From the NCBI RefSeq assembly GCF_900105065.1, contig NZ_LT629749.1:3720001-3784000 (forward strand): 64,000 bases of DNA, in the 5' to 3' direction. Position numbers and translations under genes: made by a program. Below the pieces are notes generated by a model, which was not told where the DNA came from, did not search any database, and saw nothing but the letters and a program-made list of their open reading frames with translations. Shown piece by piece: positions 4,847 to 43,081 of the stretch. Each line of letters starts with the position of its first letter. Within the stretch, counting starts at the first letter, position 1. The stretch is from Friedmanniella luteola. Its GTDB lineage: Bacteria; Actinomycetota; Actinomycetes; Propionibacteriales; Propionibacteriaceae.

Positions 4847-6931
4847 TCAGCTGGGCGGCACCAGCCCGGTGTGGTGGGCGGCGAAGGCGAGCAGGTCGGC
4901 CCACTCGGCGGCCTGCAGGGCCGTCGGCTTGCCCGCACCGTGGCCCGTGGCCACCTCCACCCGCGTCAGCACCGGGGCGTCCCCCGCCTGCGCGTGCTGC
5001 AGGGCCGCGACGAACTTGTGGCTGTGCAGCGGCACCACCCGGTCGTCGTGGTCGCCCGTGACCACCAGGGTGGCCGGGTAGCGCGTCCCCGGCCGCACGG
5101 CGTGCAGCGGGGAGTAGGCGAGCGCGTCGGCGAACTGCTCCGGGTCGCGCGGGTCGCCGTAGTCGGAGATCCAGGCCGCGCCCACCGTGAACAGGTGGAA
5201 CCGCAGCATGTCCAGGACCCCGACGCCGGGCAGCGCGACCGCGGCCAGATCGGGACGCTGGGTCATCACCGCCCCGACCAGGAGGCCGCCGTTGCTCCGG
5301 CCGTGCAGCGCCAGCTGGTCCCGGGTGGTGACGCCGGTGGCCTGCAGGTGCTCGGCCACGGCCACGAAGTCGTCGAACACGTTCTGCTTGCGGCCCAGCC
5401 GGCCGGCCTCGTACCACTCGGTGCCGTACTCACCGCCGCCGCGCAGGTTCGCGATGGCGAGCACCCCGCCGGCCGCCAGCCAGCCCGCCCAGCCCGGCCG
5501 GTAGTCCGCGAGGACGGGGATCTTGAAGCCGCCGTAGCCCCACAGCAGGGTGGGTCGTGGCCCGGCCGGCTCCGCGCCCGCGGCGCGGACCAGGAAGTAG
5601 GGCACCCGGGTGCCGTCGGCGCTGGTGGCGACGGCCCGCTCCACCCGCACCTCCGGGGCCACGAAGCCGGACGGCGAGCCCTGCACCAGCCCGGGCAGCG
5701 GGGTGACGGCCCCCGAACCGAAGGCGACGACGTACGCCGCCGTCGGGCTGACCACCGACGACAGGCCGACGAACACCTCGTCGTCGCCGGCGTGGCCCTC
5801 GAGCCCGACCACCGCCCCGCCGGGCAGGTCGAGGGTGCCGAGCAGCCGGCCGTCGAGGTCGTAGCGGCTGACCCGCGGCTGGGCGTCGACCAGGTGGACG
5901 GTGACGAAGCCGTCACCGGCCCCGGTCACCTGGATGAGCGTGTGCTCGGTCTCGGCCAGCACCTCGCGCCAGACCGGCTCGCGGGCGTCGAGGTCGACGG
6001 CCACCACCCGGCCCCGCTCGGCGTCGTCGTCGGTCTGCAGGTACAGGGTCGAGCCCGACGAGCGGACCAGGGTGAACTCCGCGACCGGCTCGTCCACCAC
6101 CTTGACCGGCGCCCCGAGCCGGCTGGCCCCGTCCTCGGTGCTGACGGGGTAGGCCCACAGCCGGTTCTGGTTCTCGGTGCCGGCGACGATGCTGACCACG
6201 AGCCAGTGGTCGTCGTCGGTGGTCTCGGACCAGATCATCAGCCGCTCGTCGGGGAACGCCAGGACCAGCTCGTCCTCGTCCGCCGGCCGGCCGACCCGGT
6301 GCAGCCGCAGCTTCCCGCCCGCCAGCGCCGAGGTCTGCGTGCCCTCGGCGTGACCCTCGTGGTCGAAGGCGGTGTAGACGAAGGAGCGGCCGTCGGGCAG
6401 CCAGACGGGCTCGGAGAACTTGGTCTGCACCCCGACGTCGTCGACCTCGGCACCGCTGTCGACGTCCAGCAGGTGGAAGGTGTGCCAGTCGCTGCCGCCC
6501 TCGCTGACCGCGTAGGCCAGCTGGGCGCCGTCGGCCCGCAGGGCCAGCGCGGCCAGCGAGCTGGTGCCGTCGGCGGAGAAGGTGTTGGGGTCCACCAGCA
6601 CGCGGCCACCGGCCAGCAGCTCGGGCAGGGAGTCGGCGACGTACCAGACGTCCTGGTTCTGCCGGCCGTCGTTGCGGTTGACCAGGTAGCGGCCGCCGCG
6701 GTGCAGCGGGGTGCCCGCCCGCGGCCGGGCCAGCACGGCGGACATGGTCGCGCCGAACCACGCCCGCTCGGGCAGGGCGGCCAGGTAGCCGGCACTGAGG
6801 TCGTTCTGCCGCCGCACCCAGTCGGCCGTCTCTGCGGCGTCGGGGTCCTCGAGCCAGCGGTAGGGGTCGTCCACGGTCCTGCCGTGCAGCTGCTCGCGGG
6901 TGTCGTCACGTCGGGTCTGCGGGTGGTCCAC
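4847..6931 (-). CDS. prolyl oligopeptidase (S9A serine peptidase)
   Basis: This 694-residue cytosolic endopeptidase cleaves short peptides after proline. An N-terminal segment (DDPYRWLEDPDAAETADWVR) and a seven-bladed beta-propeller (about residues 75-420) lead into a C-terminal alpha/beta-hydrolase domain. The catalytic Ser is in GRSNGG (Ser546), the Asp in GDHDDRVVPLHS and the His in GHGAGKP; NLRGGGEYGTEWYEAG is also a family signature. Length is typical and there is no signal peptide. The GTG at 6931 has a TAGCGT -10 box 8 nt upstream. It is probably monocistronic, ending at the shared REP-type terminator. Confidence 0.95.
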   Translation of the reverse strand: MDHPQTRRDDTREQLHGRTVDDPYRWLEDPDAAETADWVRRQNDLSAGYLAALPERAWFGATMSAVLARPRAGTPLHRGGRYLVNRNDGRQNQDVWYVADSLPELLAGGRVLVDPNTFSADGTSSLAALALRADGAQLAYAVSEGGSDWHTFHLLDVDSGAEVDDVGVQTKFSEPVWLPDGRSFVYTAFDHEGHAEGTQTSALAGGKLRLHRVGRPADEDELVLAFPDERLMIWSETTDDDHWLVVSIVAGTENQNRLWAYPVSTEDGASRLGAPVKVVDEPVAEFTLVRSSGSTLYLQTDDDAERGRVVAVDLDAREPVWREVLAETEHTLIQVTGAGDGFVTVHLVDAQPRVSRYDLDGRLLGTLDLPGGAVVGLEGHAGDDEVFVGLSSVVSPTAAYVVAFGSGAVTPLPGLVQGSPSGFVAPEVRVERAVATSADGTRVPYFLVRAAGAEPAGPRPTLLWGYGGFKIPVLADYRPGWAGWLAAGGVLAIANLRGGGEYGTEWYEAGRLGRKQNVFDDFVAVAEHLQATGVTTRDQLALHGRSNGGLLVGAVMTQRPDLAAVALPGVGVLDMLRFHLFTVGAAWISDYGDPRDPEQFADALAYSPLHAVRPGTRYPATLVVTGDHDDRVVPLHSHKFVAALQHAQAGDAPVLTRVEVATGHGAGKPTALQAAEWADLLAFAAHHTGLVPPS

Positions 6932-32097: not shown

Positions 32098-32106
32098 GGC
32101 GCCACG

Positions 32107-33204
32107 CTACGGCGCGGGCGCTCGCCGGGGCTCGGTCGCGTCGGGGTAGACGGCCACGTCGGGCGCCTTGACCGTCGCCCAGACAGGCGAGCCGGGCCGG
32201 AGGTCCAGCTCCGCGACCGCCGCGGCCGTGACCTCCGCGAGGATGCTGCTCCCCGGGTCCGGGGCGTCCGCGACCTCGACCCGGACGCCCGAGCCGTGCG
32301 GCTCCAGCCCGGCCACCCGGCCTGCCCACACGTTGCGGGGCGACCCCTCGGGGCGGCGGGTGAACAGGGAGACCGCCGCCGGGCGGAACGACGCCCGGAC
32401 CGGCCCGCGGACGGCCTCGGCCCCGTGCACCACGCCCCCGCCGGGGAGCCGGACGACGGCGCCGACGCCCTCCCCCGCCAGCAGGTTCAGCCCGACCAGC
32501 CGGGCGACGTAGTCGGTCCGCGGCCGGGCGGCGACCTCGGCCGGGGTGCCGGTCTGCACGACCCGCCCGGCCTCCACCACGACCAGCCGGTCGGCCAGCA
32601 CGGCAGCGTCGACGGGGTCGTGGGTGACGACCACGGTGGCCCCGCCGAAGGCCTGCAGGTGCCGTCGCAGCTCCCCGCGGACGAGCAGCCGGGTCCGGGC
32701 GTCCAGGGCTGCCAGCGGCTCGTCGAGCAGCAGCAGGCCCGGCTCGGTGGCCAGCGCCCGCGCCAGCGCCACCCGTTGCGCCTGGCCGCCGGACAGGGTG
32801 CGGGGGCGCGCGGGCGCCAGCTCGCCCAGCCCGACCCGGGCCAGCCAGCCGGCCGCGACCGCCCGGGCCTCGGGCCGGGGCCGGCCCCGCGCGGTCAGCC
32901 CGAAGGCCACGTTGTCGAGCACCGACAGGTGCGGGAACAGCAGGTAGTCCTGGAAGACGACGCCCACCCCGCGCTCGTGGGCGGGCCGGTGCCACCGCCG
33001 GCCGGCGTCCGCGAGCAGCCGGCCGTCCAGCTCCACCCGGCCGCGGTGCAGGCCGAGCAGGCCGGCGAGGGCCCTCAGCGCGGTCGACTTGCCCGCGCCG
33101 TTGGGCCCGACGAGGGCCACGACCTCGCCGGGCCCGACGTCGAGGTCGAGACGGAGGTCGAAGCCCGGGCGGACGACCACCAGCCGGGCCTGCAGGCCGG
33201 TCAC
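32107..33204 (-). CDS. modC: molybdate ABC transporter ATP-binding protein
   Basis: This 365-residue ATPase has Walker A at residues 33-41 (GPNGAGKST), the signature TLSGGQAQRVALARALATEP, Walker B LLLLDEPLAALD and the switch His in VVVTHDPVDA. A C-terminal TOBE-like domain of about 100 residues follows (WAGRVAGLEPHGSGVRVEVA). It energises ModB. The GTG at 33204 overlaps the modB stop (GTGA); the upstream open frame is a modB shadow. Molybdate rather than sulfate is inferred from ModA and the HTH-TOBE gene. Confidence 0.9.
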   Translation of the reverse strand: MTGLQARLVVVRPGFDLRLDLDVGPGEVVALVGPNGAGKSTALRALAGLLGLHRGRVELDGRLLADAGRRWHRPAHERGVGVVFQDYLLFPHLSVLDNVAFGLTARGRPRPEARAVAAGWLARVGLGELAPARPRTLSGGQAQRVALARALATEPGLLLLDEPLAALDARTRLLVRGELRRHLQAFGGATVVVTHDPVDAAVLADRLVVVEAGRVVQTGTPAEVAARPRTDYVARLVGLNLLAGEGVGAVVRLPGGGVVHGAEAVRGPVRASFRPAAVSLFTRRPEGSPRNVWAGRVAGLEPHGSGVRVEVADAPDPGSSILAEVTAAAVAELDLRPGSPVWATVKAPDVAVYPDATEPRRAPAP

Positions 33205-34019
33205 CACCGGGCGGTCCAGCGGTCCCGGAGCAGGGCCAGCACGACCACCGACACCGCGAGCAGCAGCACCGAGAGCAGCAGGGCGGCCCCCGAGTCGGTC
33301 TCCAGGGCCAGGTAGACCTCGAGGGGCATGGTGCGGGTGGTGCCCGGGAAGCTGCCGGCGAAGGTGATGGTGGCCCCGAACTCGCCCAGCGCCCGGGCCC
33401 AGGCCAGCACGGCGCCCGCGGCGATGCCCGGCCCGACCAGCGGGAGCGTGACCCGGCGGAAGACGGTGACCGGACGGGCTCCGAGGGTCGCGGCGGCCTC
33501 CTCGTAGCGCCGGTCGGCTCCGCGCAGCGCGCCCTCCACCGCGAGCACCAGGTAGGGCAGGGCCACGAAGACCTGCGCCAGCACGACCGCGTACGGGGTG
33601 AACGGGAAGGCGAAGCCGGTCAGCGCGTGCAGCGGCCGGCCGACGAGGCCGGAGCGGCCGAGCACGGTGAACAGGGCGACGCCGCCGACGACGGGCGGGA
33701 GCACCAGCGGGACGGTCACGAGGGCCCGGAGCAGCGGGGCGCCGCGCAGACCCGGACGGGCGAGCAGCCAGGCCAGCGGCACGCCCAGGAGCAGGGCCAC
33801 CACCGTCGAGGCGCTGGCGGTGACCAGGGAGAGCCGGAGGGCCTGCAGGGCGCCGCCGCTGGTCAGCAGGGCGCCGGCCTGGCTCCACGGGGCGCGCAGC
33901 ACCAGCCCGAGCAGGGGCCCGAGGAGGAACAGCAGGGCCAGGGCGGCCGGCAGCCCGAGCACCCAGGGGACCGGGCCCCGGACGTCGACCGCGCCGGCGG
34001 CCGGCACGGCCCGGCTCAC
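33201..34019 (-). CDS. modB: molybdate ABC transporter permease
   Basis: This 272-residue inner-membrane protein has about six helices and the EAA loop for ModC contact (EEAAATLGARPVTVFRRVTL). The LGEFGATITFAGSFPGTTRT segment is diagnostic of ModB/CysT-type permeases and usually marks ModB. Overlaps both neighbours by four bases. Confidence 0.92.
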   Translation of the reverse strand: MSRAVPAAGAVDVRGPVPWVLGLPAALALLFLLGPLLGLVLRAPWSQAGALLTSGGALQALRLSLVTASASTVVALLLGVPLAWLLARPGLRGAPLLRALVTVPLVLPPVVGGVALFTVLGRSGLVGRPLHALTGFAFPFTPYAVVLAQVFVALPYLVLAVEGALRGADRRYEEAAATLGARPVTVFRRVTLPLVGPGIAAGAVLAWARALGEFGATITFAGSFPGTTRTMPLEVYLALETDSGAALLLSVLLLAVSVVVLALLRDRWTARW

Positions 34020-34792
34020 GGCGGGCCGAAGCCGGCGTCCCGCAGCACCCGCCGGCCCGCGTCGGAGCGCACCAGGTCGACGAACGCCCGGGCGGTGGTC
34101 GGGTTGCGGCTCGCCCGCAGCACCGCCACGGGGTAGCGGTTGGGCGCCTGGGCGGCCTCGGGGACGGGGAGGCCCTCGACGCCTGCACCGGCCGCCACCA
34201 CGTCGGTGGTGTAGACGAGGCCGGCGTCGACCTCGTCGGCGGTCACCTTCTGCAGGACGGCCTTGACGTCGGACTCGAGCGTGTCGGGGGCCGCCGTCAC
34301 CCCGGCCGCCCGGAGCACCTGCTCGGCGGCTGCCCCGCAGGGCACCTGGGCGGCGCAGAGGGCGATCCGGAGGTCGCGGTCGGCGAAGTCGGCCAGCCCG
34401 CTCACCCGTCCGGGGTTGCCCGGCGGAACGGCGATCTCGAGGGTGTTGGTGGCGACGTCGACCGGGTCGGCGGCGGCACCCGCCGTCGTCACCGTCGTCA
34501 TGGTGGCGGTGCTGGCGGCGGCGAAGACGTCAGCCGGGGCGCCCTGCACGGCCTGCGCGGCGAGGGTGGCGCTGGACCCGAAGGAGAAGGCCACCGTCGT
34601 GCCCGGGTGCGCCGCCTCGAACTCCCGGCCGAGGGCGGTGAAGGCCTCCGTCAGCGAGGCGGCCGCGAGGACGGTCACCGTGCCGCTCGGCCCGGCGGCG
34701 GGTGCCGCTGCCGGTGCGTCGGCCGAGCAGGCGGTGAGGGACACCGCGACGGCGGCGGCCAGGGCGGCCGCGGCGGCCCGGGGGCTGCTCAC
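34016..34792 (-). CDS. modA: molybdate ABC transporter substrate-binding lipoprotein
   Basis: This 258-residue lipoprotein has a signal with lipobox LTAC (Cys22). The periplasmic-binding fold begins VTVLAAASLTEAFTALGREF, and the Ser-bearing AFSFGSSATLAAQ and the later Asp/Tyr region (DEVDAGLVYTTDVVAAG) are typical ModA oxyanion-binding segments. It captures molybdate or tungstate outside the cell. The GTG at 34792 overlaps the upstream HTH-TOBE gene (GTGA). Confidence 0.93.
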   Translation of the reverse strand: MSSPRAAAAALAAAVAVSLTACSADAPAAAPAAGPSGTVTVLAAASLTEAFTALGREFEAAHPGTTVAFSFGSSATLAAQAVQGAPADVFAAASTATMTTVTTAGAAADPVDVATNTLEIAVPPGNPGRVSGLADFADRDLRIALCAAQVPCGAAAEQVLRAAGVTAAPDTLESDVKAVLQKVTADEVDAGLVYTTDVVAAGAGVEGLPVPEAAQAPNRYPVAVLRASRNPTTARAFVDLVRSDAGRRVLRDAGFGPP

Positions 34793-35187
34793 CGGTGCTC
34801 CGGGACCTCGACGACGACGTGCGTCGACTTCACCGACGCCACCGCCAGCACCCCGGGCTCCAGGCCGAGCTCGGTCGCGGCCTCGGCCGACATCAGCGAG
34901 ACCACCCGGAACGGCCCGCACTGCAGGTCCACCTGCGCCATCACCGTGTCCTTGACCACCCGGGTGACCAGGCCGGTGAAGCGGTTGCGGGCGCTCTCGG
35001 CGACCGGGCTGCCCAGCTCCGGCGCCGACGCCACCTGCTGGGCCAGCGCGGCCAGGTCGCGGCCGTCGACGCGGGCAGGGCCCGGACCCCCGGCGCTCGG
35101 CAGCCGGCCCGACTCCACCCAGCGGCGGACCGTGTCGTCGGAGACGCCGAGCAGGGCCGCGGCCTGGGCGATGCGGTAGCGGGGCAC
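34789..35187 (-). CDS. HTH-TOBE molybdate-responsive protein
   Basis: This 132-residue protein has an excisionase/MerR-type helix-turn-helix (YRIAQAAALLGVSDDTVRRW VESG region, residues 4-28) and a C-terminal molbindin-like TOBE domain (about 65-130; RNRFTGLVTRVVKDTVMAQV, then VVSLMSAEAATELGLEPG). TOBE domains bind molybdate as oligomers. The fusion suggests it senses molybdate and controls or stores it for the operon it leads. The GTG start is leaderless with TAGGAT 6 nt upstream (35194-35199). Confidence 0.85.
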   Translation of the reverse strand: MPRYRIAQAAALLGVSDDTVRRWVESGRLPSAGGPGPARVDGRDLAALAQQVASAPELGSPVAESARNRFTGLVTRVVKDTVMAQVDLQCGPFRVVSLMSAEAATELGLEPGVLAVASVKSTHVVVEVPEHR

Positions 35188-35193
35188 AGGATC

Positions 35194-35199
35194 ATCCTA
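35194..35199 (-). promoter_or_regulatory. -10 box for leaderless mod operon mRNA
   Basis: TAGGAT on the minus strand, 6 nt before the GTG at 35187; the only promoter seen for the four-gene mod operon. Confidence 0.45.
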
Positions 35200-35286
35200 G
35201 GCCGCTCCTGCGGCCTTCGGGCGCGGAATGTTCCGCGTCTGCGTACATCTGCGCGTGCGGCGGGCGGGCGCGGCAGACTGAGGTCC

Positions 35287-35891: not shown

Positions 35892-36842
35892 ATGGACCTG
35901 GCGATCGAGGCGCACGGCCTCGTCAAGCGCTACAAGAGCTTCACCGCCCTCGGCGGGGTGGACCTGGCGGTGCCCCGCGGCACCGTGCTGGGCCTGCTGG
36001 GGCCGAACGGGGCGGGGAAGACGACCACCGTCCGCTGCCTGACCACGCTGCTGCAGCCCGACGGCGGGTCGGCCCGCGTCGCGAGCGTGGACGTGCTGAA
36101 GGATCCCGGCGGCGTCCGGAAGCGGATCGGGCTGTCCGGCCAGTACTCGGCGGTCGACGAGTACCTGACGGGGATGGAGAACCTCGTCATGGTCGGCCGG
36201 CTGTACCACCTCGGCCGGGCCCGGAGCCGGGCCCGCGCCCACGAGCTGCTCAAGCAGTTCGGGCTCGAGGAGGCGGGCGGCAAGCCGGCCAAGGCCTACT
36301 CGGGCGGCATGCGGCGCCGGCTCGACCTCGCCGCCGCGCTCGTGGCCGAGCCCGAGGTGCTGTTCCTCGACGAGCCGACCACCGGGCTGGACCCGCAGGG
36401 CCGCATCGAGGTGTGGGAGATGATCGCCGCCCTGGTGGCGGGGGGCACGACGCTGCTGCTCACCACCCAGTACCTCGAGGAGGCCGACCGGCTGGCCGAC
36501 GAGATCGTCGTCATCGACCGCGGCCTGGTCATCGCCCAGGGCACCGCCGACCAGCTCAAGGCGCAGGTGGGGGGTGAACGGCTGGAGCTCACCGTCTCCT
36601 CGCCCGACCAGCTGGAGACGGCCGTGCGGTGCCTCGACGGGCTCGGCACCGGGCCGGTGACCGCCGACGCCCACAGCCGCGGCATCACCGCCCCGGTCTC
36701 GGGCGGGGCCGGCGTGCTCGTGGAGGCCCTGCGCCGCCTGGACTGCGCCGGCGTCACCCTCGACGACGTGGGGCTGCGCCGGCCCACGCTCGACGACGTG
36801 TTCCTGTCCCTGACCGGCCACACCGCCGAGGAGGAGAAGTGA
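35892..36842 (+). CDS. Drr-type ABC transporter ATP-binding protein
   Basis: This 316-residue ATPase has Walker A at 37-45 (GPNGAGKTT), the signature YSGGMRRRLDLAAALVAEPE, Walker B VLFLDEPTTGLDPQGR and the H-loop replaced by Gln in LLLTTQYLEEADRLAD. This Q-loop-like TQYLEEAD is a mark of the DrrA family. The C-terminal extension (LTVSSPDQLETAVRCLDGLG) and TLDDVFLSLTGH end are also DrrA-like. DrrA proteins power export of antibiotics or lipids. Overlaps its permease by four bases. Confidence 0.92.
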   Translation: MDLAIEAHGLVKRYKSFTALGGVDLAVPRGTVLGLLGPNGAGKTTTVRCLTTLLQPDGGSARVASVDVLKDPGGVRKRIGLSGQYSAVDEYLTGMENLVMVGRLYHLGRARSRARAHELLKQFGLEEAGGKPAKAYSGGMRRRLDLAAALVAEPEVLFLDEPTTGLDPQGRIEVWEMIAALVAGGTTLLLTTQYLEEADRLADEIVVIDRGLVIAQGTADQLKAQVGGERLELTVSSPDQLETAVRCLDGLGTGPVTADAHSRGITAPVSGGAGVLVEALRRLDCAGVTLDDVGLRRPTLDDVFLSLTGHTAEEEK

Positions 36843-37639
36843 GCGTGCTCAGCTCGTTGGGCGACGGCCTCGTCGTCGCCCAGCGCAACCTCATCAAGAT
36901 CAAGCGGGTGCCGGAGCTGCTGGTCTTCACCACCCTGTCGCCGATCATGTTCGTGCTGCTCTTCGCCTACGTCTTCGGCGGGGCGATCTCCGGCGGCGAC
37001 CCGCAGCAGTACCGCGAGTTCCTCATCGCCGGGATCTTCGCCCAGACCGTGATCTTCGGGGCGACGACGACGGGCGCGGGGCTGGCCGACGACGTGCAGA
37101 AGGGCATCATCGACCGGTTCCGCTCGCTGCCGATGTCACGGACGGCGGTGCTGACCGGGCGGACGCTCTCGGACGTGGTCAACAACGTCATCGTGCTGGT
37201 GGTGATGTCGCTGACCGGCCTGCTGGTGGGCTGGCGGATCCGCAGCTCGTTCCTCGACGCCCTCGCCGGCTACCTCGTGCTGCTGGTCTTCGCCTACGCC
37301 ATCTCCTGGGTGATGGCCTTCGTCGGCCTGCTGGTGCCCAGCGTCGAGGTGGTCAACCAGGCCTCGTTCATCGTGATCTTCCCGATCACCTTCATCGCCA
37401 ACACCTTCGTGCCCCTGGAGTCGCTGCCCGGACCGCTCGAGGTGTTCGCGCAATGGAACCCGGTCTCGGCCATCACCGCGGCCGCGCGGGAGCTCTTTGG
37501 CAACGACGCCCTGACCGCCCCCGCCACGGTGTGGCCGCTGCAGCACCCGGTCGTCTACACCCTGATCTGGTCGGCGCTGGTCCTGGTCGTGTTCGTCCCC
37601 CTCACCACCTGGCAGTTCCGGCGCGCCGCCAGCCGGTGA
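36839..37639 (+). CDS. Drr-type ABC-2 transporter permease
   Basis: This 266-residue protein has six predicted membrane helices. It has the ABC-2 signature FIVIFPITFIANTFVPLESL and the cytoplasmic LADDVQKGIIDRFRSLPMSR loop, as in DrrB. With the ATPase it forms a homodimeric-type exporter. GTG start overlaps the ATPase stop (GTGA). Cargo unknown. Confidence 0.92.
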   Translation: MSVLSSLGDGLVVAQRNLIKIKRVPELLVFTTLSPIMFVLLFAYVFGGAISGGDPQQYREFLIAGIFAQTVIFGATTTGAGLADDVQKGIIDRFRSLPMSRTAVLTGRTLSDVVNNVIVLVVMSLTGLLVGWRIRSSFLDALAGYLVLLVFAYAISWVMAFVGLLVPSVEVVNQASFIVIFPITFIANTFVPLESLPGPLEVFAQWNPVSAITAAARELFGNDALTAPATVWPLQHPVVYTLIWSALVLVVFVPLTTWQFRRAASR

Positions 37640-37680
37640 CGGCAGCCCTCCCTCCTCCGTTCGGGCCACACCTCCCGCTG

Positions 37681-37783
37681 CCCCTCGACCTCGACCTCGA
37701 CCCTCGACCCCAGATCCCTCTGCCCCCGACCCCTCGACCCCTCGACCCCTCGGCCCCTCGGCCCCCGACCCCCGACCCTCGAC
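37681..37783. repeat. CCCTCGAC-type minisatellite, G-quadruplex-prone on minus strand
   Basis: About 100 bp of irregular repeats of CCCTCGAC, CCCCTCGG and CCCCCGAC, with about twelve C runs of 3-5 separated by short linkers. The minus strand therefore carries about twelve closely spaced G runs, far more than the four needed for a G-quadruplex. Confidence 0.75.
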
Positions 37784-37811
37784 GCCGCTCTCTCCGCCGC
37801 GGTCGAGGCCT

Positions 37812-37895
37812 GTCCCCCACTTCACACCCCTCCGGTGGACTTCACACCCCGTGCAGAGGGTGCCTCGACCACCGCAGGGGTGTGAAGTGGGGGAC
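37812..37895. repeat. palindrome A, left of the DUF559 gene
   Basis: Two 27-bp arms (37812-37838 and 37869-37895) are inverted repeats with a single mismatch; both contain the unit ACTTCACACCCC. The 30-bp middle carries another direct copy (TTCACACCCC at 37841-37850). It shares its arms and the order of units with palindrome B at 39053-39122, but one inner arm is decayed. Confidence 0.85.
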
Positions 37896-38018
37896 CTGAC
37901 AAGACGGCAGCGTCCGGGCGGCGCGAGCGGGCGCGGCGATGGCGGCGGGATGGCTCCCGGGGCGCCAGGTCGGGCGGCAGCGGGACCGCCCCGGGTGCCG
38001 CGCTGGCCGGCGGCCGGG

Positions 38019-38939
38019 CTAGAGCGGGCGACCGGCGCGGGCGAAGGCGCGCAGCAGGCGCTGCTGGATCAGCAGCGGGCGGGCGAGGTCGGCCCAGATC
38101 CACCGGACGACCTGCCAGCCGGCGTCGCGGAGGGCGTCCTCGCGCAGCTTCTCCGCGAAGACGACGTCCTCGGGTCGCTGACCCGGTCGGAGCAGGGCGC
38201 CGTACTTGACCCGGCCGTCGAACTCCCCGATCGTGCGCCGGTCGGGCCAGGCGAAGTCGACGCGGGCGATCATCGTCCCCTCGGCGTCGTAGACCTCGTA
38301 CTGCGGGATCGGCGAGGGCAGGCCGAGCTCGCCGATCCGGACGCGGCTGACCGACTCGCCCGCCGTCTCCGCCCGGCCGTCGAGGAAGTCGGCCACCCGG
38401 CGCGCCTGTCGCACTCCCGGCCACTGCTCCATCGTGCTCAGCACGTCCTCGAGGTGACCGAAGTCGAGGTCCTGCGCGGCGGCCCGGTCGCCGGCGGCGA
38501 CGGCCTGGTCGAACGGCAGCAGCCGGGCCAGGTCGGCCACGGTGCGGGGCAGGGTGGTGACCGCCAGTCCGTCCAGCTCGGCGACGTGGGCCGTCGGCAG
38601 CGTCGCCCCGTGCACCTCGACGTCGCGTCGACGCTTCGCGCCGGTGCTGCGGTTGCGGGTGAGGTGCACCCGCTCGATCGACGCCGGCCAGACCGGCAGC
38701 CCGTGCAGCACCGCGGCCGAGCCGTGGCTGACGACCGCGCCCGGCTGCACCTGGGCGGCGACCGCCTCCAGCTGCAGCCGGTGCCGGACTTCCGCCGTGA
38801 CCTCGGCCGGCGAGCCGTCCGCGGCGGCCCAGGCTCCCCGGCGGACGTGGACCAGCCGGCCGTCGCGCTGCATGCGGCGCAGCTCGTCGGGTGCGTAGCC
38901 GTCCTGCAGCAGGTCGCGGGTGAGGCGGATCTTCGACAT
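38019..38939 (-). CDS. AbiEi-like N-terminus plus DUF559 (PD-(D/E)XK/Vsr-like) nuclease-type protein
   Basis: The first 55 or so of 306 residues resemble the winged-helix N-terminus of AbiEi-type antitoxins (IRLTRDLLQDGYAPDELRRM, then RDGRLVHVRRGAW). The middle reads as the family's SHGSAAVLHGLPVW segment. The last 90 are DUF559-like, with a PD-(D/E)XK pattern: Asp and Glu in RVDFAWPDRRTIGEFDGRVK, and EKLREDALRDAGWQVVRWIW. No AbiEii-type toxin gene is next to it. The ATG at 38939 (MSKIRL) is preferred; a 40-codon longer frame begins at a GTG inside palindrome B. DNA cleavage is inferred. Flanked on both sides by related palindromes. Confidence 0.8.
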   Translation of the reverse strand: MSKIRLTRDLLQDGYAPDELRRMQRDGRLVHVRRGAWAAADGSPAEVTAEVRHRLQLEAVAAQVQPGAVVSHGSAAVLHGLPVWPASIERVHLTRNRSTGAKRRRDVEVHGATLPTAHVAELDGLAVTTLPRTVADLARLLPFDQAVAAGDRAAAQDLDFGHLEDVLSTMEQWPGVRQARRVADFLDGRAETAGESVSRVRIGELGLPSPIPQYEVYDAEGTMIARVDFAWPDRRTIGEFDGRVKYGALLRPGQRPEDVVFAEKLREDALRDAGWQVVRWIWADLARPLLIQQRLLRAFARAGRPL

Positions 38940-39052
38940 CTGCCCACCCCACCGCAGAATCGGGCGCGCGGACCGGGTGCCGACCCGATCTGTGGACAAC
39001 GTCTGACCGGCCTGACGACCCGGGAGACGCCGCAGCCACCCTGCGTCCGCCG

Positions 39053-39122
39053 ACTTCACACCCCTGCGGTGGGCTTCACACCCCGTGCACGGGGTGTGAA
39101 GTGCCCCGCAGGGGTGTGAAGT
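39053..39122. repeat. palindrome B, right of the DUF559 gene
   Basis: A 70-bp nested palindrome: 17-bp perfect outer arms (39053-39069 and 39106-39122), and a 26-bp perfect inner palindrome (39075-39100). It contains four copies of TTCACACCCC, two direct (39055, 39075) and two inverted (39091, 39111). The outer arm sequence is the same as in palindrome A. Confidence 0.9.
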
Positions 39123-39176
39123 GGGGGCCCGAGGGAGACCCGAGGGTCCGAGGGGCGGGTGCCCGGGGACGCCGAA

Positions 39177-39204
39177 GGGCGGGCCGGGTGTCCCCGGCCC
39201 GCCC
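39177..39204 (-). terminator. terminator of rpoBC
   Basis: GGGCGGGCCGGG (39177-39188) pairs perfectly with CCCGGCCCGCCC (39193-39204), 23 bp past the rpoC stop. Confidence 0.75.
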
Positions 39205-39226
39205 TCCGACGGTCTTGCTGGCTAGC

Positions 39227-43081
<3,855 letters not shown>

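Follow-up and report, generated by a model that had tools for sequence, protein, structure and literature searches.

Does the nuclease-type gene that lies beside rpoC in Friedmanniella luteola, between two long and related palindromes, serve the host, or does it belong to an element that carries its own sites? The locus is part of a window of 64,000 nucleotides (assembly GCF_900105065.1, contig NZ_LT629749.1, positions 3,720,001 to 3,784,000), the whole stretch of DNA that was analysed. The original prediction had described it as a candidate mobile cassette whose protein might act on the flanking palindromes, A and B. We consider it probable that the locus represents a selfish element bounded by palindromes and driven by its nuclease, and that this copy is autonomous. 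Comparison between genomes shows matched framing of the homologous genes, palindromes that differ from gene to gene, cognate copies that often lie elsewhere in the same genome, and one locus that is solo in one genome and occupied in another. A mobile cassette with a protein acting on its flanking palindromes is well supported by these associations.

As had been predicted, palindromes A and B are built from the same unit, ACTTCACACCCC, continue in both cases with T(C/G)CGGTGG, and enclose a single gene. Palindrome A has two ACTTCACACCCC-type boxes per arm, about 20 bp apart, and GTCCCC/GGGGAC at its borders; its arms (37795-37849 and 37858-37912) are 76% complementary, and it was scored as a single palindrome spanning 37812-37895. 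The arms of palindrome B (39050-39087 and 39088-39125) are 89% complementary. Read in the same direction, the two palindromes also repeat one another, with 77% identity over 113 nt. The exact 12-mer ACTTCACACCCC is absent from the rest of the window, in agreement with the earlier reading, though it occurs 24 times on the forward and 24 times on the reverse strand of the 4,717,514-bp chromosome, where a reversed-pattern control gave 0. These occurrences resolve into 21 copies of a palindrome of about 72 bp, A and B included, and 19 of the 21 lie away from the gene. Twenty copies (that at 2862328 was omitted from the context and conservation counts) were set side by side. Their outer boxes stand at a fixed spacing, and the outer box and the GTCCCC/GGGGAC border are nearly fixed, while the inner box varies more and little conservation is left some 20 bp beyond the palindrome. 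No GTAG or CGTC tag, such as marks one end of each repeat in a REP/RAYT system, was visible by eye at these borders. Among 56 relatives, 19 of them of the same genus, the exact 12-mer was found as one or two strays in 12 genomes and was absent from 44. The palindromes were also considered as RNA genes and rejected as such: their Rfam matches, obtained at a permissive threshold, were microRNA families far under gathering scores, an artefact that any long hairpin yields.

Homologues of the gene were found in all 20 Microlunatus genomes (E up to 0.001), and the protein family was matched in 86 of 296 phylum genomes sampled (E up to 1e-10). The 80 named loci with homologues (the best 80 of 486 confirmed) belong to Rhodococcus, Pseudonocardia, Geodermatophilus, Nocardia, Blastococcus and others. 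Framing statistics were drawn from 108 loci, 107 of which had full 400-bp flanks; the set excluded duplicates (L046, L055, L057, L061, L067, L072, L078, L082), L052, whose frame has a stop, L062-L064, which are partial or weaker, and L085-L093, which are distant homologues. A palindrome was present on both sides of the gene at 50 of the 107 loci, on one side at 41 and on neither at 16, so that at least one flanking palindrome accompanies the gene at 91 of 107. The 86 kb next to the genes held 155 palindromes, or 1.80 per kb, whereas the 472 kb farther off in these loci held 43, or 0.09 per kb; simulated flanks gave a palindrome at 1 of 108 loci. The palindromes differ in sequence from gene to gene, while within a cassette the two palindromes matched one another better than any other in 48 of 50 cases. 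None of 5000 permutations reached the similarity observed. Related sequence was detected on the other flank at 22 of the 41 one-sided loci. Homologues of the window gene are therefore commonly flanked as it is, by pairs that match in sequence.

What the palindromes have in common is an anatomy and not a sequence. Their median length is 70, and a strong internal direct repeat was found in 92 of 135 arms, at an offset of 19 or 20 in 83 of those 92 (about 2 in shuffled arms); such a palindrome is four boxes on one helix face. Between the upstream palindrome and the matched part of the gene there are mostly about 90-150 bp, and the downstream palindrome follows soon after that part. The centre reads CTGCAG in 23 of 135 palindromes, by far the commonest six-base centre, though the remaining sequence varies. 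By inspection, nine distant homologues (L085-L093, 32-37% identity) have two palindromes of 39-57 bp in four cases, one in four and none in one; these shorter palindromes possibly mark a second architectural class.

The palindrome families are close to private. The counts that follow, the highest included, are lower bounds, with up to 17 or 37 candidates per genome scored. Among the matches listed for 37 palindromes against 33 genomes, 231 places lay in the palindrome's own genome and 2 elsewhere, and 180 of the 231 were off-cassette. For the 24 palindromes searched as a joined query against the 20 genomes of the genus, the matches listed comprised 115 places in the own genome and 2 elsewhere, with 84 of the 115 off-cassette, in 14 of the 24 families. 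Both foreign places were in one genome (G003), which has a related cassette at a site orthologous to that of the matching family. For 13 palindromes from 13 named genomes, all 116 places listed were in the own genome, and 96 of these were off-cassette, in 9 of the 13 genomes. Counting the cassette's own, at least 38 places were listed in Nakamurella silvestris, at least 24 in Pseudonocardia acaciae and at least 23 in Nocardia brasiliensis. That 19 of the 21 window-family copies lie off the gene would, taken alone, speak against a bond between palindrome and gene, but copies listed almost exclusively in the source genome, 115 against 2 and 116 against 0, speak for it.

At the 3' end of rpoC in another genome of the set (G019; locus L035, about 2244-2314) there is a palindrome built from ACTTCGCACC, one base off the window box. 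Three copies of this family were found in G019, counted within the 84 above, and no cassette was found for it; of the two homologues in G019, one has a different palindrome (L050) and the other none of the ACTTCGCACC kind (L213). The family is possibly an orphan left after loss of its gene. We also observed that members of a single family can stand close together in twos, with about 136-471 bp between them: one such pair lies at 4927-4998 and 5137-5208 of L025, and others are in G002, G003, G004, G009 and G019, some of them adjoining a cassette. These pairs recall REP (repetitive extragenic palindrome) doublets, or may be collapsed cassettes.

The interval between drrB and rpoC, which the original prediction had singled out for comparison, does differ among relatives. 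In the sister genome G018, whose RpoC C-terminus is 98% identical, the interval is short and its sole hairpin above threshold is terminator-like; diverged cassettes occupy the interval in G006, G007 and G011, and G019 has a palindrome without a homologue there. The cassettes behind rpoC in the window genome (G000) and in G006, G007 and G011 do not form one clade in the protein tree, which needs at least two changes; the cassettes most simply represent two separate arrivals. Beside rpoC in G012 (contig C12:77821-77976, L040) we observed a 52-codon match to the nuclease end, with a stop, together with a short palindrome; this remnant is probably a decayed cassette.

Away from rpoC, the window palindrome was absent at all 13 orthologous solo sites found in G018, a genome that lacks the exact 12-mer; two of these intervals carry hairpins of different sequence. 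Exact insertion joints could not be read from these 13 sites, the intergenic DNA being too diverged. The clearest comparison comes from another cassette of G000, at 1325113, where the order is palindrome, gene, palindrome. G018 has a single palindrome at this place, between flanks that are 90-92% identical, and both flank alignments overlap on the same 41 bp of that palindrome. Four further gene-free sites gave no second clear before-and-after pair: L209 has a palindrome of another kind, L210 and L212 have none and that in L211 is weak. A check for the target-site duplication of an insertion sequence or miniature inverted-repeat transposable element found the sites too diverged, or the duplicated part to be the palindrome itself. 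L138 and L142, which come from one metagenome-assembled genome, were rejected as a case of within-genome transposition, since their alignment spans the entire 4.3 kb and they more likely represent two strains. As to vehicles, the window protein had no match in phage records, and plasmid carriage was set aside on five plasmid records, each below 60% identity; these annotate members of the family as hypothetical or as AbiEi antitoxin.

Cassettes that share a site differ from one another. In 14 same-site pairs the gene DNA is 69-77% identical and the proteins 40-66%, and the gene is less alike than both flanks in 12 pairs and than one flank in the other 2. L070 and L075 illustrate this, with 61% identity in protein and 77% in gene DNA between flanks of 93% and 89%, and with different palindromes. 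The winged helix was the least conserved part in six of the seven same-site pairs compared by domain, which is what a recognition domain changing together with its sites would give. The protein tree unites some same-site sets, namely the rpoC trio of G006, G007 and G011, and L067/L068/L071. In two sets, L048/L054/L077 and L067/L068/L071, the cassettes of several species share a chromosomal site but not their palindromes; the sets offer natural series on recognition change or cassette replacement.

The protein had been read as an AbiEi-like winged helix fused to a DUF559-type nuclease. This reading is borne out by the predicted structure and only in part by sequence profiles, which are the weaker guide to its domains. 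The AlphaFold model (mean pLDDT 90.9, from a 23-sequence alignment) matches the AbiEi antitoxin 6y8q over residues 1-187 (Z 12.4, 169 aligned, root-mean-square deviation 5.9). Residues 192-304 of the model match the domain of the homing endonuclease I-Bth0305I (3r3p; Z 11.4, 97 aligned, deviation 2.6), the endonuclease-like 3hrl (Z 11.2) and Vsr (1cw0; Z 9.2). In the same model residues ~51-187 also resemble nucleotidyltransferase toxins such as MenT1 (Z 10.9), a resemblance that we take as the second AbiEi domain. The window protein is thus predicted to join an AbiEi-type half to a nuclease half of the Vsr/I-Bth0305I type. Pfam AbiEi_4 gave the window protein only an E of 0.01, below cut-off, and matched 14 of the 23 aligned members at E 0.01, the window protein not among them, while PADLOC AbiEi models at E up to 0.01 matched all 23. 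The DUF559 model PF04480 did not list the window gene in a whole-genome profile search, and 'DUF559' is therefore a resemblance only. The candidate active-site residues are near invariant: E195 in 108 of 108 loci, D228 in 107 of 107 (one gap), E239 and D241 each in 107 of 108, and K245 in 103 of 108, with an E239-F-D241-G run among them; which of these may be catalytic is judged from the predicted fold.

From these features a mechanism can be proposed. The AbiEi-type winged helix would bind the palindrome boxes; AbiEi proteins are described as binding inverted repeats (PMC7319586). The protein would likely act on the palindrome as a symmetric dimer or tetramer, because most palindromes have four boxes, two per arm and 19-20 bp apart; I-Bth0305I dimerises on a target of nearly 60 bp (PMC3943268). 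The Vsr-like half would nick or cut the palindrome, whether in DNA form or extruded into a hairpin. The break would then be repaired from a second copy that bears a palindrome, and this repair would spread a bare palindrome or insert the gene with one extra palindrome, in a homing-like manner, and recombination between flanking palindromes would remove the gene and leave a solo copy, much as a solo long terminal repeat (LTR) is left. Recognition domain and boxes may drift together, or cassettes may replace one another, and either course would account for private families in each lineage.

Several observations weigh against a selfish element of this kind. Binding, cutting and movement are steps that we infer. 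The exact joints of the window cassette are unreadable, and the pair at 1325113 is compatible with gain in G000 or with loss in G018 and gives no direction. Among the fetched loci, none was a recent copy of an entire cassette of its own genome. Many cassettes occupy the same place in related species, so that movement is rare and vertical descent common. The differences at shared sites need not mean fast divergence of gene and palindrome. Some of the flanks compared, rpoC for example, are unusually conserved genes, and the tree separates L070 from L075 and L076 from L079 (moderate support) despite their shared sites, so that a cassette may have been replaced at a shared site. As to framing, palindromes are missing altogether at 16 of 107 loci, and at 19 of the 41 one-sided loci no partner could be detected; loci of related species are not independent, and the near/far density control sets mostly intergenic against mostly coding DNA. 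Among the matches listed, 10 of the 24 Microlunatus families and 4 of the 13 named ones have no off-cassette copy. Finally, converging genes border 17 of the 20 window-genome palindromes examined, A and B among them, whereas 36 of 214 neighbouring gene pairs in the same loci converge (these 17 included; binomial tail 5e-11), while in relatives 7 of 20 solo copies do so against 17 of 74 pairs (tail 0.16). A preference for converging genes was therefore rejected as a general rule; the bias belongs to the window genome or its family and not to the class.

The main rival holds that the palindromes are regulatory. The AbiEi-type domain would sit on the upstream palindrome and repress the promoter of its own gene, the copy downstream would be a terminator, and the solo copies would be regulon sites or general terminators. 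AbiEi and Rv2827c autoregulate through inverted repeats (PMC7319586), and the placing of the two palindromes about the gene suits an operator and a terminator. All 40 copies examined, by codon-usage gene calls, are intergenic, and those of the window genome stand mostly between converging genes. Promoter sites would not be expected to show only 2 of the 40 between divergent genes, though divergent pairs are scarce in the background too. An operator and a terminator have no need of a common sequence, and a conserved regulon would not be private to each genome or be missing at 13 of 13 sister sites. Solo and palindrome-gene-palindrome alleles require an event of gain or loss, and the nearly invariant active-site candidates of the nuclease are left unexplained. 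Autoregulation with terminators would account for the AbiEi half; it does not account for solo copies that are private, for the alleles or for the conserved nuclease, and we regard it as unlikely.

Less likely still is that the palindromes belong to the host, as terminators or as sites for supercoiling or chromosome organisation, and that the nuclease is a domesticated partner that now moves little or not at all. The long vertical descent of cassettes at orthologous sites and the convergent bias of the window genome would suit such sites. The listed copy number nevertheless ranges from none to dozens and the sequence is private to each genome, and a family match in just 86 of 296 phylum genomes argues that the host does not depend on it as an essential system. 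A homing endonuclease gene of the classical type, for which the palindrome is only the target and the solo copies are empty targets of host origin, would agree with the predicted I-Bth0305I fold and with solo and occupied alleles at one locus. If the target came from the host, however, relatives without the gene ought to have it, whereas window copies are absent at the 13 G018 sites, the 56 relatives hold at most two stray 12-mers each, and the palindromes themselves multiply; we think this very improbable. Least credible of all is that these are ordinary REP elements moved by a Y1 (HUH) REP-associated tyrosine transposase (RAYT) elsewhere in the genome, with the AbiEi-nuclease gene a passenger: some REPs are specific to a species, and REPs are often placed between genes that converge or run in one direction (PMC3733652), but Y1_Tnp (PF01797) had no match at E up to 1 in the window genome, the sole genome searched, while a control search was positive in 10 of 14 genomes (6 above cut-off), and it is the AbiEi-nuclease gene that recurs between matched palindromes, other genes between matched pairs not having been looked for. 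An autonomous, palindrome-bounded selfish element thus remains the reading that we prefer.

The features of the locus are collected in Table 1; genes were called with a codon-usage script, not an established caller.

Table 1. Coordinates of the cassette and its surroundings in the window.
Feature	Position	Strand	Remark
Palindrome A	37812..37895, core 37818-37889	none	129 bp past the gene stop codon
Nuclease gene	38019..38939	-	306 aa; sole good gene between A and B
Palindrome B	39052..39123	none	same ACTTCACACCCC unit as A; 112 bp before the gene start codon
ABC-2 type permease (drrB-like), flanking host gene	36839..37639	+	
rpoC, flanking host gene	39227..43081	-	3' side is a recurrent cassette slot
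Terminator-like hairpin after rpoC	39170..39211	none	

The hairpin behind rpoC is placed outside the cassette because the empty sister locus (L027) has this hairpin too. The original prediction was right that no AbiEii toxin partner stands by: the called neighbours of the gene are the ABC-2 permease and rpoC, with no nucleotidyltransferase toxin among them. The next gene beyond these is an ABC-transporter ATPase, whose weaker AAA_21 match carries the label 'AbiEii' in name only. A low-complexity run of CCTCGACC-type octamers lies between the permease gene and palindrome A (37680-37790), and upstream of the drr genes (32100-35200) are open frames resembling what we take to be a molybdate uptake cluster.

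Extending these observations, we think it somewhat better than an even chance that a separate class of selfish DNA exists, convergent with REP/RAYT systems, in which AbiEi-Vsr fusion nucleases mobilise their own four-box palindromes, insert themselves and shed solo copies. Recognition domain and palindrome would coevolve in it, and many actinobacterial species would own private pairs. If this is true, the REP/RAYT lifestyle, in which a single cognate nuclease maintains a population of palindromes, has two or more origins that involve unrelated enzymes, and a function can be offered for a large actinobacterial family. It would also provide many natural protein-palindrome pairs of differing specificity, in which recognition and homing are directly testable. 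A limited literature search, with most subscription papers and bioRxiv outside its coverage, found no published description of such a palindrome-framed AbiEi-nuclease element.

Among known systems, retroelements with their solo LTRs are also repeat-bounded elements reducible to one repeat. The likeness is one of analogy, since here the repeats are palindromic, the gene is a nuclease and the cassette has no reverse transcriptase. With the type IV AbiE system the window protein shares the AbiEi fold predicted for residues 1-187, and the PADLOC matches of its relatives; it differs in having a nuclease domain of its own, and AbiEii is not among its called neighbours. With I-Bth0305I and the EDxHD homing endonucleases it shares the predicted Vsr-type nuclease fold. 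Here, however, an AbiEi half replaces the phage-type DNA-binding modules, whole palindromes flank the gene, and phage records gave no match to the protein.

The REP/RAYT likeness drawn in the original prediction is the closest. There too a gene lies between two palindromes that are lineage-specific and have cognate copies elsewhere in the genome. RAYTs, as reported by Nunvar 2010 (PMC2817692), are always flanked by two REPs, coevolve with them, evolve faster than their neighbours and correlate with the abundance of the cognate REP; REPINs are described as mobile doublets (PMC3116915). Two-REP flanking and cognate abundance have close counterparts here, and there are signs of coevolution and of fast gene evolution. 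Two-sided framing, however, was detected at 50 of 107 loci and not always as in the RAYTs described there. The palindromes are about 70 bp long, mostly with four boxes 19-20 bp apart, whereas REPs measure 20-40 bp (PMC3733652); listed copies per family run from 1 to at least 38, whereas REPs usually exceed 100. The predicted enzyme is an AbiEi winged helix with a Vsr-like nuclease and not a Y1 HUH transposase, and since no Y1 gene was found in the window genome, membership of the REP/RAYT class was rejected. The comparison fails for the enzyme and holds for the logic.

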